From: Halalkalicoccus sp. CG83
GTDB taxonomy: Archaea; Halobacteriota; Halobacteria; Halobacteriales; Halalkalicoccaceae
DNA length: 64,000 bases
Assembly: GCF_037081715.1 (NCBI RefSeq)
Contig: NZ_JAZDDH010000001.1
Span: 2,232,001-2,296,000 of the forward strand
Reading direction: 5' to 3'
The notes under the pieces are model-generated. The model was not told the DNA's origin. It did not search any database and saw only the letters and a program-made list of their open reading frames with translations. Below, in pieces: positions 3-5,663 of this stretch (positions within the stretch are counted from its first letter, which is position 1; each line of letters starts with the position of its first letter). The position numbers and the translations under genes are program-made.

Positions 3-635
3 GCCCGAGATATGCTGGATCGTTGGAAGCAGGTCCCCTCAGAGAACCGGAGCGACGAGTTTCAGGAGCGGATCGAGCAGACAGAGCAAGCGGTCGAAGA
101 TTTCGAAAACCATCTACGCTATGCGAAGATGTTCCTCCAGCAGATTTCGGAGGGCGAGGACTCTCAGTTCCAGCCAAAGCCGCAGGTTACCAAGATTATC
201 GAGAACTTCGAACGGTATACCGATCAACGCAGAATCGAGGTAGAGAACGCGATTCCGTTCGGGCTGGAGACGCCCGAAGTGAACGTCGGGCTCTACACCG
301 GCGTTCTGATCAACCTATATACTAACGCTATCAAAGCCGTCGTAGAGGACGGAATCGGGGACGATGGTCGTCATGTACGGTTCGAAGCTGAGAACACTAG
401 TAACTGGCACAAGATTCGGGTAATCGATAACGGCGTCGGCATCTCAGAAGAGGAACGGACCCGGATCTTCGAGCCAATGTATTCAACAACTAACGTGGAA
501 GGACCGACGAGTGTTGGCACAGGGCTCGGTCTATACATCGTGCAACAGGTAATTGAACGCGCTGGCGGCGAAATCGCCTTGGTTGAGCCACCGAACGGAT
601 TTGAAACTGCGTTCGAGGTGAGGTTACCACGATGA
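3..635 (+). CDS. Sensor histidine kinase ATPase module, 5' end cut by window edge
   Basis: The reading frame is open to the first bases of the window, so the true start and any sensor domain lie upstream; the first ATG is at 12. Counting from it, a GHKL/HATPase domain is clear: N-box with N101 and N105 (NLYTNAIKAV), G1 box DNGVGI at 139-144, and G2 box GTGLGLYIV at 169-177. The first 70 residues look helical and may be part of the dimerisation region, but no obvious phosphorylatable H-box is visible. The stop overlaps the next start (ATGA), so it is co-translated with the receiver-like protein. By family knowledge it would bind ATP and phosphorylate a partner; the partner is inferred to be the next gene. 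Confidence 0.85.
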   Translation, partial: ARDMLDRWKQVPSENRSDEFQERIEQTEQAVEDFENHLRYAKMFLQQISEGEDSQFQPKPQVTKIIENFERYTDQRRIEVENAIPFGLETPEVNVGLYTGVLINLYTNAIKAVVEDGIGDDGRHVRFEAENTSNWHKIRVIDNGVGISEEERTRIFEPMYSTTNVEGPTSVGTGLGLYIVQQVIERAGGEIALVEPPNGFETAFEVRLPR

Positions 636-1714
636 CAGCATTCGACGACCGGGTCCTGGTGTTTGAAGACCGAGACGATAATTACGAGGAGATCCGGGCA
701 CCCCTCGAAAGGACATTGCCGGACGGACTGACGCTCGAACGGTTCAACCATGATATGCCGATAGAATCGAACGAAGTCCTACATGAACTAGAAGATCGGG
801 TCAAAGACCCACATTTTCCTTTACTCATCATCCTTGACTATGATTTGACAGTGGCGTATAACCAAATCCGGCGGGAACACGTACGGCAGCTCTGTGAAGA
901 CCACGATCTACCACTCTGTATCTACCACCGTATCAACTCCACGCCCGAGGACAGACTGCAGGTACAGGAATACGAGGAGGACCGGATCAAGATCAATCCC
1001 AGCAAGGGTGCGGAGGAGGTCGCTCGCGACGCGGCGAACATCGCCAAAGGATTTGACCAGATTAGGCACTCGTTGGCCGAAGCGCTTGGAAACGAGTCCC
1101 GGCCAGCCATACCGGAGATTCTGGATGCGCCACGCAATGTCCGTGGAAAACTGGACCAGTATTCATGGGGGAATCCCGGTGCATTGATGGGCGGTGGCCC
1201 GAACATGGACCAGGACGCTCTCATCCGCCGGTCGACCACCCATCTAGGGTACTGGATCCGCAACGAACTCCTCGAGTTCCCGGGCGCCCTGCTCAACTCG
1301 GTCGCTCTGGCTGCTTACTTGGATGTCGACCACGACGCATTACGCGAAGACCCGCAGTACCAAGAGCCGTTCAACGATGCCCTGTACAACGGCCCGTTTG
1401 CAGAGCTCGGTCGGTGGTGGTGGACGCCGAAGATCGACGAAATTCGGGCATTGCATATGACTGAAGATGATACGGAGATGCCGCTAGGTCAGGTCATCTT
1501 CGAGCGATTGAAGTTGCCAGAAATCGGGCGGGCAATCTGTCACGACGGTGAATCGGAAAACCACGGTGGCGCCCGGTATTACTGTATAATCAAAGAAGAA
1601 CCAGTGTGCGAGGAGCATTCGAAGAATCCTGAAGGATGGATCCCGATGGGTGCTACCCGTTCGCGAATTTCGCGGGATGAGCTTGCCAGACTGGAACCCT
1701 GGACGCTGAGCTAA
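632..1714 (+). CDS. Receiver-like (REC) protein with large unknown C-terminal domain
   Basis: 360 aa. The N-terminal 130 residues resemble a response-regulator receiver: acidic cluster FEDRDD at 11-16, a hydrophobic strand ending in candidate phospho-acceptors D69/D71 (LLIILDYDLT), and a lysine in DRIK (K120) where receivers carry their conserved Lys. The remaining 220 residues match no family I recognise; they contain an aromatic stretch (GRWWWTP) and several late Cys/His residues (AICHDG, YYCIIK, PVCEEHS) that could bind metal. It overlaps the kinase gene by 4 bp and lies 7 bp before the next gene. I infer that the kinase controls the C-terminal domain. The receiver call is motif-based and divergent. 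Confidence 0.6.
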   Translation: MTAFDDRVLVFEDRDDNYEEIRAPLERTLPDGLTLERFNHDMPIESNEVLHELEDRVKDPHFPLLIILDYDLTVAYNQIRREHVRQLCEDHDLPLCIYHRINSTPEDRLQVQEYEEDRIKINPSKGAEEVARDAANIAKGFDQIRHSLAEALGNESRPAIPEILDAPRNVRGKLDQYSWGNPGALMGGGPNMDQDALIRRSTTHLGYWIRNELLEFPGALLNSVALAAYLDVDHDALREDPQYQEPFNDALYNGPFAELGRWWWTPKIDEIRALHMTEDDTEMPLGQVIFERLKLPEIGRAICHDGESENHGGARYYCIIKEEPVCEEHSKNPEGWIPMGATRSRISRDELARLEPWTLS

Positions 1715-1721
1715 CCCTACA

Positions 1722-2507
1722 ATGTCTAGAGAACCCGTCAATCTGGAGAGTGAGGACTTATATCAGATTAAGCAAGCCTACGGGTCGTTCTGGGATATGT
1801 TCCAGAGTTCGCAAGGCGTGAAAGCCGAGGGGAACTCCGACGATATCCAGGTCATGTTGGATGACGGAGATGTTCGAGTCGAGATCCCGGGTTATTTCAA
1901 GATCAGTGAACTGCAGTACCGGCGGGACAGGTCTGATGACCTGTGCGATGTCTGTTTCCAGCCGGAGCTACTTATCCATGGTCGAGAATACGATGGTGGT
2001 CTCCGGTATGAGATCGGGAAGTCAACCACGCGGGTCTCGTATATCCGGAGGCAAGGCAACCGGCAAGCCGATGGCCGGTTCCGGGCTGAGATCAAACAGG
2101 GAATGCACTACGACTTCGAGGCAGAGCCGGACGCACGGCATCCGATTTTCCACGTGCAGTATGATCCGACAGCGATCGATCCAGGAATGCTCAGCGAGGA
2201 GTACGAGGTTATGAATGCGAACGAGATAGCGGGCGAACACCCGGATTTCCCGCGTATTCCGTCTCCGCCGATGGATTTCGCCGGTATCCTCTATCTAATT
2301 ATTAAGGATCACGAGCAGGGAGAGAACGCGACGTGGCCAAATAAAGTGTTAGAGTTCTTGCGGGATCTTCCGACGTTTCCGAAATGGTGTTTCGATCCGA
2401 ATCCCCAAGCCGGGAATGAGATGATTCCGGAGTGGTGGTACGTCCATGCCGATGGGGGACCTCACGTTCCTGAGGCCATCATTAATGTACGATGCACTGA
2501 TCGATAG
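1722..2507 (+). CDS. Unknown protein, third gene of the kinase/receiver cassette
   Basis: 261 aa, acidic and soluble, with no signal peptide or membrane segment. A CxxC pair lies at C75/C78. The central part (HPIFHVQYDP, then RIPSPPMDFAGILYL) and the aromatic end (PEWWYVHADGG) faintly recall the DUF2290 family, but I cannot confirm this. It starts 7 bp after the receiver-like gene and is almost certainly co-transcribed with it. Base composition is lower in GC than the chromosome to the right. A role as output or substrate of the upstream two-component pair is inference from position only. Confidence 0.55.
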   Translation: MSREPVNLESEDLYQIKQAYGSFWDMFQSSQGVKAEGNSDDIQVMLDDGDVRVEIPGYFKISELQYRRDRSDDLCDVCFQPELLIHGREYDGGLRYEIGKSTTRVSYIRRQGNRQADGRFRAEIKQGMHYDFEAEPDARHPIFHVQYDPTAIDPGMLSEEYEVMNANEIAGEHPDFPRIPSPPMDFAGILYLIIKDHEQGENATWPNKVLEFLRDLPTFPKWCFDPNPQAGNEMIPEWWYVHADGGPHVPEAIINVRCTDR

Positions 2508-2637: not shown

Positions 2638-3078
2638 TTAGACGTTATCTGATTTATCGAAAACATCCAAATTGTTCAGTTCACTCATGATCTGTCGGTC
2701 GATTCTGTTGACAGGCTGATTCTCAGGTCGTTCTACCTCAATCTCAATGAGTTCACCGTCGCTGCTCTTAGTGTGAGTTTTCTTCACAATCCCATTACGG
2801 ACTTGGATCCCTCGCGCTCGCCACACGGCGTATTCCGAGACGCAGATTTCAAGGAGTTTGTTGGCCTTGGCGGTCCCATCTTCGAATGGGGCGTCCTCAA
2901 GATAGCTCTCGAACTTCGCTTGGACCCACTGGTAGTTCTCGGGCTCCTCGCGTTCGAGGTACTCAAGGAGATTATCGGGCTGGCTATACAGGCCGTGTTT
3001 CATCGCATTCTGGTTCTCAGACGGCGCTCCACCACCTGCATTCCCCTTCGCAAAGTCATTACCTTCAGGTGCTGGCAT
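2638..3078 (-). CDS. Terminase small subunit-like phage protein
   Basis: 146 aa from the ATG at 3078; a longer reading to 3117 is possible but less likely, because the recognisable block starts at this Met. The N-terminus is rich in Gly/Asn/Lys and includes NAMKHGLYS, a block that recurs in haloarchaeal provirus small-terminase-type proteins. The rest is acidic and helical. No large terminase, portal or capsid gene is nearby, so it is either a remnant or a cargo gene. Together with the integrase at 4479-5663 it supports a provirus or integrated-element origin for the first 5.7 kb. The family call comes from memory of the motif. Confidence 0.5.
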   Translation of the reverse strand: MPAPEGNDFAKGNAGGGAPSENQNAMKHGLYSQPDNLLEYLEREEPENYQWVQAKFESYLEDAPFEDGTAKANKLLEICVSEYAVWRARGIQVRNGIVKKTHTKSSDGELIEIEVERPENQPVNRIDRQIMSELNNLDVFDKSDNV

Positions 3079-3373
3079 GGTGTCTGAAGTGTTTGTTTCT
3101 AATCTCGGGAGAACCATCTGTCTTTCGACGAATTTGGGGGGAGTTAATGGACGATATCGACAAGTAACATCGGTTTGACCCCGTTTCTCGATAAAACCTG
3201 CTGGGTCTAAAACAGGATCCCTCCCTCATGCGGCGCGCACAGAGGGGCACCAGTAGGCGCGCCGACTAAGCGCACTCCTGAACACGGATTCTACTTATAG
3301 GAATTTCAATAGAATGTCTACGTTCTCTTGTTCTATATCCTCTATTTGGCGTATCCTGGCCGGCTCTCATTGA

Positions 3374-3991
3374 TTATTCGAAGGTTCGTTCAAGCCGCCG
3401 GGCATTGGCATCACCATATTCTTTCTTACTAATAGTTCCGGAGTGAAGCAGGAGGTCGAGTTGATCACGAGAAAGACGGCTCAAATCGCCTTCTGCAAGT
3501 GATTCGAGGTCTTCCCCCCGGTCTACGGTAATGGACACGTCAACATCTGCTTCTACACCCTCGCGACTTGATATTGCTTGTTCTATACCACGAGAGATAG
3601 TCCCTTGCAGCCGCTGAGCACGTCGGTCGGGAGACTCGGCTTCAGTGCCTGGACCATCCTTTACAAGATCTGAAGCGATGAGTGGATTCTCGGGTTGTGC
3701 AGCATATAAAAATCCAGCTAAGGAGTGTAATGGCTCTACTCGATCTTCGTCATCGGTTCGGATTTTCTCCATCTCTTTGTGGGGGAACGTATGGACCAGC
3801 AACAAGAAGTCCCAAGACGCCGCCCTGATCCGATGGCGGATTCGTCTGAGCAAGGCACGTTCACTACTGCCGGTGAGGTCACGCTCCCCGAAAAAATACT
3901 CCCGTTGTGCTGGCGTAAGTACTGATGCGGGTGAGTCATGGTATGCTTCACCAAAAGTTCGAAATGGTATCTCTCCGTTCTCGTCAGGCAT
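3374..3991 (-). CDS. Haloarchaeal protein of unknown function from mobile-element context
   Basis: About 205 aa from the ATG at 3991. A longer upstream reading to 4255 would run through the promoter region and add a Cys-rich, non-acidic stretch, so I reject it. The first 80 residues (LTPAQREYFFGE, then an arginine-rich RRIRHRIRAASWDF) resemble short proteins common in haloarchaeal integrated elements. The C-terminal third is acidic and helical. The start lies about 27 bp from a symmetric TATA element shared with the divergent gene at 4046, suggesting leaderless, possibly coupled expression. Function unknown. Confidence 0.55.
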   Translation of the reverse strand: MPDENGEIPFRTFGEAYHDSPASVLTPAQREYFFGERDLTGSSERALLRRIRHRIRAASWDFLLLVHTFPHKEMEKIRTDDEDRVEPLHSLAGFLYAAQPENPLIASDLVKDGPGTEAESPDRRAQRLQGTISRGIEQAISSREGVEADVDVSITVDRGEDLESLAEGDLSRLSRDQLDLLLHSGTISKKEYGDANARRLERTFE

Positions 3992-4012
3992 GTTCGCTAT
4001 AGCGAACCCAGG

Positions 4013-4026
4013 GGATATATATTTAC
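4013..4026. promoter_or_regulatory. Symmetric TATA element between divergent genes
   Basis: The core ATATATAT at 4015-4022 is centred at 4018.5, exactly midway between the two divergent start codons (3991 on the minus strand, 4046 on the plus strand). Each start is about 27 bp from the centre, the usual archaeal TATA-to-start-site distance, so one element could drive two leaderless transcripts. Confidence 0.5.
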
Positions 4027-4045
4027 CGACCTCATAGGAAGGAGT

Positions 4046-4189
4046 ATGCCCATTGCCGGCACGACGATCGGGCCAGTTACGCCCGACACGCGGGACCGAC
4101 TCGCAGACTACCGGGATGCAGAAGGTCACCCACACTACGAGGCAGCAATCAACGCACTGCTTGAGGAGTATTCCGGCCGGCAAGATTGA
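4046..4189 (+). CDS. Small RHH-like or antitoxin-like haloarchaeal protein
   Basis: 47 aa. The ATG at 4046 is preceded by GGAG and lies about 27 bp after the shared TATA element. The sequence DTRDRLADYRD followed by YEAAINALLEEY has the look of a ribbon-helix-helix or small DNA-binding protein: a short beta-like N-terminus, then two helices. Such proteins are frequent in haloarchaea and can act as autoregulators or antitoxins. The divergent 205-aa gene is a candidate partner. Function is inferred only. Confidence 0.55.
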   Translation: MPIAGTTIGPVTPDTRDRLADYRDAEGHPHYEAAINALLEEYSGRQD

Positions 4190-4287: not shown

Positions 4288-4478
4288 AAAGTGAATCGCA
4301 CGGACGAAGGCGCTGGAGTAGGCCTTCTACTGGGATGTAGACTCCCGTGGTTGAATACTCTTACTCCCTGCGCCCGGTCAACCGCAATCCAGGTCGTCGG
4401 AGGTGACTTGATTGCATGAGTACCGACGATCGGCGAAGTACTTTCCCTAATGCGCGGACACGCTACCGACGGGGTGCT

Positions 4479-5663
4479 ATGAACGACGGCCTCGAACCCA
4501 CGGCGCCTGCCGAGGCAGTGGAGTGGTATCTGGCCGAACGCGACCCCGAACTCACTGAGAAGTCGCTGCAGAACCACCGGTATCGCCTCTCGCAGTTTCT
4601 TGAGTTCTGCGACAAGCACGAGATAGACAACCTGAATCCGCTTACCGGACGCGATCTCCATCGGTTTCGAGTGTGGCGCAACGAGGACATCAAGACTGTC
4701 ACGCTCCGCGGCGAGTTGCAGACGCTCCGCGTGTTCCTCGAATTCTGCGCGGCGATCGACGCCGTCGAACCGGGGCTGCGCGAGCGGGTGCATCTCCCTG
4801 AGATTGATCCGATAGACGAAGCCCGCGATGAACACCTCGCGACCGATCGTGCCGAGACGATTCTTGGCCACCTCGATCGGTTTGCCTATGCGAGTCGGGA
4901 TCACGTCCTCGTCGCGATCCTCTGGCACACGGGTATCCGATTAGGGAGTCTCCGCGCATTCGATGTTGGAGACTTCGATCCGGACGCAATGTGTCTTGAC
5001 CTCCGGCACCGGCCGGAGACGGGGACGCCCCTCAAGAACAAGCAGGCGGCCGAACGGTCGATTGCTGTCGGGCCGCACTACTGCGACGTGATCGAGGACT
5101 ACCTCGACCACAGCAGAGAGAAGGTGACTGATGAGCACGGACGGCGACCGCTCATCAGCAGCTCGCAGGGACGGCTGAGCGAGGGCGCGATCCGCGAGAC
5201 GGTCTACCGGGTCACCCAACCATGCGAGATGGGCGAGTGTCCCCACGACCGCGATCCCGACACTTGCGAGGTACGAACGCACGGGAAGCGAGCCGGGTGC
5301 CCATCCTCGCGATCGCCGCATGGGATCCGGCGCGGATCCATTACGAACCATCTGCGCGAGGGCGCGATCCGCGAGACGGTCTACCGGGTCACCCAACCAT
5401 GCGAGATGGGCGAGTGTCCCCACGACCGCGATCCCGACACTTGCGAGGTACGAACGCACGGGAAGCGAGCCGGGTGCCCATCCTCGCGATCGCCGCATGG
5501 GATCCGGCGCGGATCCATTACGAACCATCTGCGCGAGGGAACGCCTCAAGAGGTGGTTTCAGATCGCGCGAACGTCTCGAAGGATGTTCTTGATCTACAC
5601 TACGATGAGCGTACCGAGCGCGAGAAGATGCAGATTCGTCGCGACTTTATCGAGGGAGCGTAG
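4479..5663 (+). CDS. Tyrosine recombinase/integrase with duplicated catalytic segment
   Basis: 394 aa from the ATG at 4479; an ATG at 4416 would add 21 basic residues before the typical SAM-like N-terminal domain. The catalytic box I arginine is R154 (HTGIRLGSL) and the nucleophile is Y375 (LDLHYDERT). The HxxR motif (SPHGIRRGS) occurs twice, at H281/R284 and H340/R343, because 59 residues are exactly duplicated; the second copy has the normal spacing to the Tyr. The duplicated part also holds a Cys/His-rich insert common in haloarchaeal integrases. Without it the protein would be about 335 aa, normal for the family. Whether the enlarged protein is active is unclear. Confidence 0.85.
   Translation: MNDGLEPTAPAEAVEWYLAERDPELTEKSLQNHRYRLSQFLEFCDKHEIDNLNPLTGRDLHRFRVWRNEDIKTVTLRGELQTLRVFLEFCAAIDAVEPGLRERVHLPEIDPIDEARDEHLATDRAETILGHLDRFAYASRDHVLVAILWHTGIRLGSLRAFDVGDFDPDAMCLDLRHRPETGTPLKNKQAAERSIAVGPHYCDVIEDYLDHSREKVTDEHGRRPLISSSQGRLSEGAIRETVYRVTQPCEMGECPHDRDPDTCEVRTHGKRAGCPSSRSPHGIRRGSITNHLREGAIRETVYRVTQPCEMGECPHDRDPDTCEVRTHGKRAGCPSSRSPHGIRRGSITNHLREGTPQEVVSDRANVSKDVLDLHYDERTEREKMQIRRDFIEGA
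5179..5532 (+). repeat. Perfect 177-bp in-frame tandem duplication inside the integrase
   Basis: Copy 1 is 5179-5355 and copy 2 is 5356-5532; a third partial GCGAGGG follows at 5533-5539. No difference between the copies is visible by eye, so the duplication is recent. The 7-bp GCGAGGG at both junctions suggests slippage or microhomology-mediated duplication. The length is a multiple of three, so the frame is preserved (59 extra residues). Confidence 0.9.

Follow-up and report, generated by a model that had tools for sequence, protein, structure and literature searches.

At the left edge of the window (the whole 64,000-nucleotide stretch that was analysed, bases 2232001-2296000 of contig 1 in a 3.6-Mb haloarchaeal genome) lie three closely packed genes, which the initial annotation had read as a possible archaeal signal-triggered defence cassette on an integrated element. 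The locus raises the questions of whether these genes belong together as a unit, what the unit does and which of its products is the effector. The analysis below indicates that they belong to an operon that is probably virus-fighting.

Operon layout and genomic context

Sequence reaching upstream of the window (L002, in which window position equals L002 position minus 18000) revealed that the window edge cuts off residues 1-553 of the kinase, together with five further operon genes. The three genes are therefore the tail of an eight-gene operon, all on the plus strand, and what had been taken for a stand-alone set belongs to an operon linked to methylation, which in this genome includes a complete and correctly ordered PbeA, PbeB, PbeC and PbeD. 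The operon genes and two neighbours are listed below.

L002:9386-11527, plus strand, outside the window: N6 DNA methyltransferase, Eco57I/TaqI type
L002:11559-13676, plus strand, outside the window: PbeA (PADLOC)
L002:13679-13864, plus strand, outside the window: PbeB-like open reading frame, 61 aa (position and conservation)
L002:13875-15830, plus strand, outside the window: PbeC (PADLOC)
L002:15832-16245, plus strand, outside the window: PbeD, weak match (PADLOC)
L002:16344-18635, plus strand, seen in the window as a 5'-open reading frame at 3-635: double-GHKL histidine kinase, 763 aa (domain profiles)
Window 632-1714, plus strand: receiver protein, 360 aa, a divergent receiver with a conserved C-terminal domain
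Window 1722-2507, plus strand: third protein (T3), 261 aa, proposed effector
Window 2638-3117, minus strand: terminase-small-subunit (TerS)-like gene, 159 aa, outside the module (NCBIfam TerS_not_xtmA, E=1.7e-8, below cut-off)
Window 4416-5663, plus strand: tyrosine integrase of the island (Phage_integrase, E=3e-7)

The tight junctions and low GC content noted from the window sequence were borne out, with the kinase stop and receiver start overlapping by four bases (ATGA), a 7-bp gap between the receiver gene and T3, and a GC content of 0.54-0.56 in the cassette against 0.65 in window positions 8001-64000. The ratio dN/dS to the nearest relative was 0.05-0.12, an approximate value as dS exceeds 1 and is saturated, which indicates purifying selection and argues against a chance set of open reading frames.

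The phage-type gene and integrase described nearby are the TerS-like gene and tyrosine integrase listed above. Behind the trio, a second minus-strand gene encodes a 228-aa protein of unassigned family, and the two minus-strand genes (both within 2638-4060) are perhaps provirus remnants. The integrase gene contains a 177-bp in-frame tandem duplication (window 5179-5539; 184 identical bases at an offset of 177), so that the enzyme may be inactive or the repeat may be an assembly artefact. Similarity to genomes of the same genus stops at the 3' end of a tRNA-Ala (L002:6662-6734), which probably marks the left limit of the island, and a search of the window found no second copy of this 3' end as an att repeat. 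The interval between the tRNA-Ala and the methyltransferase holds a further gene (L002:7293-8945, 10.7-9.1 kb before the window), whose 550-aa DUF7845 product matches HTH weakly and which possibly belongs to the island. A search of viral contigs found no copies of the cassette.

Kinase and receiver protein

The GHKL ATPase module recognised in the window fragment was confirmed by PF02518 (E=2e-19); this part comprises the DHp-like helices that follow the H-box and a HATPase_c domain, with H545-E546 falling just before the window edge. The full gene starts 1.6 kb before the window (the likelier ATG is at L002:16413) and encodes a soluble protein with two GHKL domains, an N-terminal HATPase_c_3 and a C-terminal HATPase_c (E=6e-26). 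The upstream sequence had been expected to hold a sensor domain, and it did supply the kinase N-terminus, but this proved to be a second GHKL ATPase rather than a conventional sensor. Both domains were found in all 12 kinases scanned. Among the 12 there is no variation in the motifs of the N-terminal GHKL domain or, further along, in H545-E546 (the H-box), N657/N661, DxGxG (695-699) and GxGLGL (725-730). The kinase profile recovered kinase structures from the PDB with E-values down to 1e-22. Judged from these residues, the protein is a histidine kinase with its catalytic positions intact, and phosphotransfer is predicted. Matches to previously catalogued families were weaker: HEF_HK matched one of the 12 kinases (E=0.008, below the curated cut-off) and scored 21 bits against a cut-off of 24.1 for the Paraburkholderia kinase (E=3e-4, related but below cut-off), and in PADLOC the kinase weakly matched PDC-M43B and others. 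A gene of Escherichia phage PhiR44_1 (PV340563.1, 8743-9045) annotated as ParaMORC3 resembles the N-terminal GHKL domain.

The second gene had been described as a divergent receiver fused to further residues, and the alignments indicate that both the receiver identity and its divergence are real. Residues 1 to about 125 carry an acidic pair (E12, D13) and a phospho-acceptor (D69), and the pair (E/D12-D13) and D69 are kept in 18 of 18 homologues. A profile of this 18-member family finds response-regulator structures (3kht, E=3e-4), and the AlphaFold model of the N-terminus has the (beta-alpha)5 order, at low confidence. The Thr/Ser position holds Ser or Thr in 12 of the 18 receivers and His in the six members of the locus type represented here (type A, below), this locus among them, while the beta-5 Lys varies across the alignment and is not universal, and for both reasons phosphotransfer may be altered. 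Response_reg_2 (PF19192) matched one of the 18 receivers (E=0.083, below the curated cut-off) and none when sought in 12 bacterial records, and the receiver protein had no match in PADLOC. The C-terminal part is a separate conserved domain with invariant W208, P217, G218, A227, Y252, G254, F256, W264, C303 and R345. For the receiver model Foldseek gave an assortment of Rossmann-like folds at low confidence, which was discarded as a guide to this domain.

The third protein

The third reading frame was confirmed as a protein outside recognised families. T3 yielded two scattered Pfam matches at E<=10 and otherwise none, no match in PADLOC and nothing convincing against PDB profiles; a profile match to LsoA (E=0.74) was put down to chance. 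Six residues (H129, D131, P141, H144, R178 and W205) are invariant in 17 homologues, at identities down to 11%. The AlphaFold model is weak (4 sequences, pLDDT 58.5, pTM 0.60), and its best Foldseek match in the PDB (E=0.23, TM 0.2) is meaningless; the model tentatively has a helix leading into a long antiparallel sheet, and both His motifs share one hairpin. An assignment as an iron/2-oxoglutarate dioxygenase (HxD...H) was rejected, the second His being only 13 residues away, and no recognisable nuclease motif was found in T3. The family is absent from Pfam, PADLOC and the PDB and is undescribed in the open-licence literature, a description elsewhere being conceivable.

Co-occurrence and distribution of the module

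The three genes co-occur elsewhere, and neither of the two unfamiliar proteins matches an ordinary metabolic family. Searching with the receiver protein matched 9 of 392 genomes of the order, and the loci fell into type A (this locus and L013-L017), with T3 as here, and type B (L018-L021), with a more divergent T3; the T3s of the two types are homologous. Searching with the T3 profile alone gave 14 matches in 13 of the 392 genomes, every one beside a kinase, a receiver and a methyltransferase and none outside this set. When the receiver profile was run against 393 genomes of the phylum, four further loci came to light in other groups (L062-L065), each again with methyltransferase, kinase, receiver and T3. 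Nor is the module confined to archaea, as had been supposed, since a Paraburkholderia plasmid carries it in the order HTH, methyltransferase, kinase, receiver, T3, and a Hymenobacter plasmid in the order kinase, receiver, T3, N6 methylase (T3 profile, E=2e-10). Methyltransferase, kinase, receiver and T3 were all present in 19 of the 19 archaeal and bacterial loci first compared, of which L020 and L021 are near-identical and to which the Hymenobacter locus is additional. Most type B loci also contain a gene for a YgjP-like metallopeptidase, divergent from the trio (L018:7239-8033, L020:7298-8053, L058:6516-7316, L059:13333-14106, L061:13617-14378).

Mirror-tree distance correlations were 0.963 for kinase and receiver, 0.962 for kinase and T3, and 0.973 for receiver and T3, against 0.53-0.64 for comparisons with the methyltransferase. 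These values point to kinase, receiver and T3 as a tight unit, with the methyltransferase as a constant but exchangeable partner; co-evolution is supported rather than proven, as the Mantel p-values ignore shared ancestry. The proposal that the cassette acts as a unit thus held up, the trio recurring with methyltransferases and, at subsets of loci, with PbeABCD (four loci), methyl-directed nucleases (three) or an integrase (some).

Methyltransferase, PbeABCD and nuclease neighbours

All five methyltransferases scanned contained Eco57I and/or N6_Mtase Pfam domains. In the operon studied here PADLOC scored PbeA at 6e-284, PbeC at 6e-205 and PbeD weakly at 0.007; no dndCDEA genes were found in the operon and no DndC above cut-off in the genome, which is 97% complete, so that methylation probably replaces phosphorothioation as the self mark. 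PbeABCD adjoins 4 of the 14 haloarchaeal copies of the trio and is lacking from the other 10, and seven of these ten genomes have no PbeA at all (E<=1e-30). The core must therefore work without PbeABCD, and the effector should lie within the core. Domain search recognised no restriction nuclease in that core (kinase, receiver and T3), only in optional neighbours, namely the PbeA PLD-helicase and AspBHI-type methyl-directed restriction enzymes. The latter lie at most 4 kb from the trio or its methyltransferase in three loci, L016-L018 (L016:13942-15093, with an Mrr catalytic domain; L017:14069-15700, HNH; L018:15728-16885, an Mrr-like homologue).

Each of the four PbeA proteins closest to that of this operon (at least 59% identity) is encoded beside the trio. 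Two more follow at 47% identity, and these instead adjoin a protein of about 970 aa whose N-terminus has the GHKL motifs ELIDNS and DNGPG and whose C-terminus is an N4/N6 methyltransferase; the corresponding loci span L096:2698-10363 and L097:6441-14080. This protein is apparently a GHKL-methyltransferase fusion replacing the kinase, receiver and T3 genes, so that this Pbe branch is again associated with a GHKL ATPase, though by another route.

The third slot in bacterial relatives

A plasmid search with the kinase N-terminus returned 73 records, in which the gene order was kinase, receiver-like protein and a variable gene. The third slot holds an HNH protein in Deinococcus, where the set is preceded by an Eco57I methyltransferase, and a metallo-beta-lactamase (MBL) protein in Pseudanabaena and in Burkholderia aenigmatica, the latter matching ComEC; in B. 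glumae there are Vsr and a cytosine methyltransferase. The third-slot proteins of Clavibacter, Mycolicibacterium and Allorhizobium are uncharacterised, and the slot is without a nuclease in several bacterial relatives; an assignment of the Clavibacter protein to the PIN family was not confirmed and was dropped as evidence. The receiver profile matched the receiver-like proteins of Clavibacter, Deinococcus, Enterobacter and Campylobacter but gave no clear match to those of Rhizobium, Allorhizobium and Mycolicibacterium. Campylobacter plasmids account for 41 of the 73 records, and the single example examined, the conjugative C. coli plasmid pCCDM224L (NZ_CP017877.1, L102), encodes the kinase, a response regulator and a cytosine methyltransferase.

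The initial annotation had placed the effector either in the C-terminal domain of the second protein or in the third. By analogy, T3 is the better candidate, because the same slot holds nucleases in bacterial relatives, although T3 is not homologous to these and the argument is one of position; the receiver C-terminal domain is correspondingly less favoured.

Proposed mechanism and alternatives

A possible explanation for this gene content is a restriction module under two-component control, made up of a paraMORC-like kinase, a receiver, T3 as effector and a methyltransferase that supplies the self mark, a reading that we give about an even chance of being correct on the sequence comparisons above. 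The methyltransferase would mark self DNA, and the paraMORC-like GHKL ATPase at the kinase N-terminus would do the sensing, its target probably being DNA that is unmodified or invading, or else a complex formed on such DNA. The kinase would then autophosphorylate on H545 and pass the phosphate to receiver D69, and the receiver, once phosphorylated, might use its conserved C-terminal domain to recruit or activate T3. T3 would be the effector, most likely a nucleic-acid hydrolase using the H-x-D / H-x-Q hairpin. The attached PbeABCD of this genome might scan or restrict DNA, with methylation in place of phosphorothioation.

Three other readings were weighed. That the double-GHKL protein is a paraMORC clamp in a DNA-scanning complex free of any phosphorelay, with the receiver and T3 as structural parts and the kinase chemistry unused or regulatory only, is unlikely. 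It draws on the proposal that paraMORCs of restriction-modification (R-M) operons loop DNA (PMC2292703) and on the two sibling PbeABCD loci in which the apparent GHKL-methyltransferase fusion, with no receiver, stands in place of the trio. However, archaea and bacteria alike keep H545 and E546 of the kinase and D13 and D69 of the receiver without exception, which makes unused phosphotransfer improbable.

Less likely again is control of expression, in which the kinase and receiver would respond to infection or to damaged DNA by turning the methyltransferase and PbeABCD on or off. The receiver C-terminus would bind either DNA or some transcription factor, and T3 would be accessory. Such a role would follow ordinary two-component logic, and an HTH gene lies ahead of the set in both Paraburkholderia and Deinococcus; yet the receiver C-terminal domain matched no DNA-binding family, T3 co-varies with the kinase and receiver far better than the methyltransferase does, and the trio is oriented opposite to the methyltransferase in several loci. 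Least probable of the three is an abortive-infection toxin, in which activated T3 would attack host RNA, nucleotides or NAD and the cell would die before the virus spreads, since the Detocs-like kinase-receiver-effector logic, the invariant H129, D131, H144 and R178 that could make an active site, and the different short protein in the Clavibacter slot are set against a constant DNA methyltransferase, which points to self/non-self discrimination on DNA, and an HNH or ComEC-like nuclease in the slot in other lineages.

Extended beyond this locus, the phosphorelay-gated restriction reading would describe a distinct class of defence in archaea and bacteria in which a His-to-Asp phosphorelay gates restriction. 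In it, a DNA-sensing GHKL kinase would work with a receiver adaptor to license effectors that can be exchanged for one another (T3, HNH or MBL), T3 would be a new family of nucleic-acid hydrolases and PbeABCD a plug-in add-on; this wider scheme is put forward tentatively, as rather less probable than the module itself. If it is true, restriction is not always triggered by a nuclease at its own site, and a phosphorelay, a signalling chemistry that is among the best known, can stand between DNA inspection and attack, which would also explain the recurrent two-component-like pairs beside R-M genes. Archaea would gain a phosphorelay-controlled defence system, solitary methylation-linked PbeABCD sets would be linked to a sensor, and T3 would be a new effector family whose six invariant residues are open to direct mutation.

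Comparison with known systems

Histidine-kinase-based defence is known from Detocs, in which a histidine kinase and a receiver are coupled to an effector that is a nucleosidase; to our knowledge no DNA methyltransferase has been reported there. Compared by description only, the module shares the kinase-receiver-effector logic of Detocs but differs in its methyltransferase and probably in an unrelated effector. HATPase and REC domains also occur in a defence system that has been predicted but not validated (PMC13092281), which may or may not be the one described here.

Coupling of Pbe genes to methyltransferases is already on record for PbeABCD/CxC-DndE systems, with 155 of 320 solitary PbeAC pairs near methyltransferase genes (Xiong et al., PMC6459918) and Pbe beside cytosine methylases (PMC10853773), and is also seen here. 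Unlike those systems, this operon has no dndCDEA alongside and its genome no DndC, and the trio occurs without Pbe at most loci. The term 'histidine kinase' is absent from the texts of both papers, and 'receiver' from that of PMC10853773. With the MORC and paraMORC ATPases of R-M systems (PMC2292703) the module shares an N-terminal GHKL ATPase alongside methylases, helicases and nucleases, but in this locus the ATPase forms one protein with a full histidine kinase and has a receiver protein as its partner.

The closest resemblance is to the HEF_HK (PF19191)/Response_reg_2 (PF19192) two-component-like pairs of bacteria, which are R-M-linked, mostly to cytosine-5 methylases with Vsr or HNH, and widely mobile (Bellieny-Rabelo 2021, PMC8011034). 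Both have a soluble kinase composed of HATPase_c_3, DHp-like and HATPase_c parts, an adjacent divergent receiver and R-M genes. In contrast to those pairs, the receiver of this locus has no PF19192 match, HEF_HK falls below cut-off and the methyltransferase is of the Eco57I/TaqI type. T3 is always present in this module, with PbeABCD in this genome, whereas the parts of PMC8011034 consulted do not describe a third-protein family. The nearest relatives are thus the R-M-linked paraMORC/HEF_HK two-component-like pairs rather than Detocs, to which the cassette had first been likened, and the module is a new version of the R-M-linked HEF_HK/Response_reg_2 theme with an undescribed T3.
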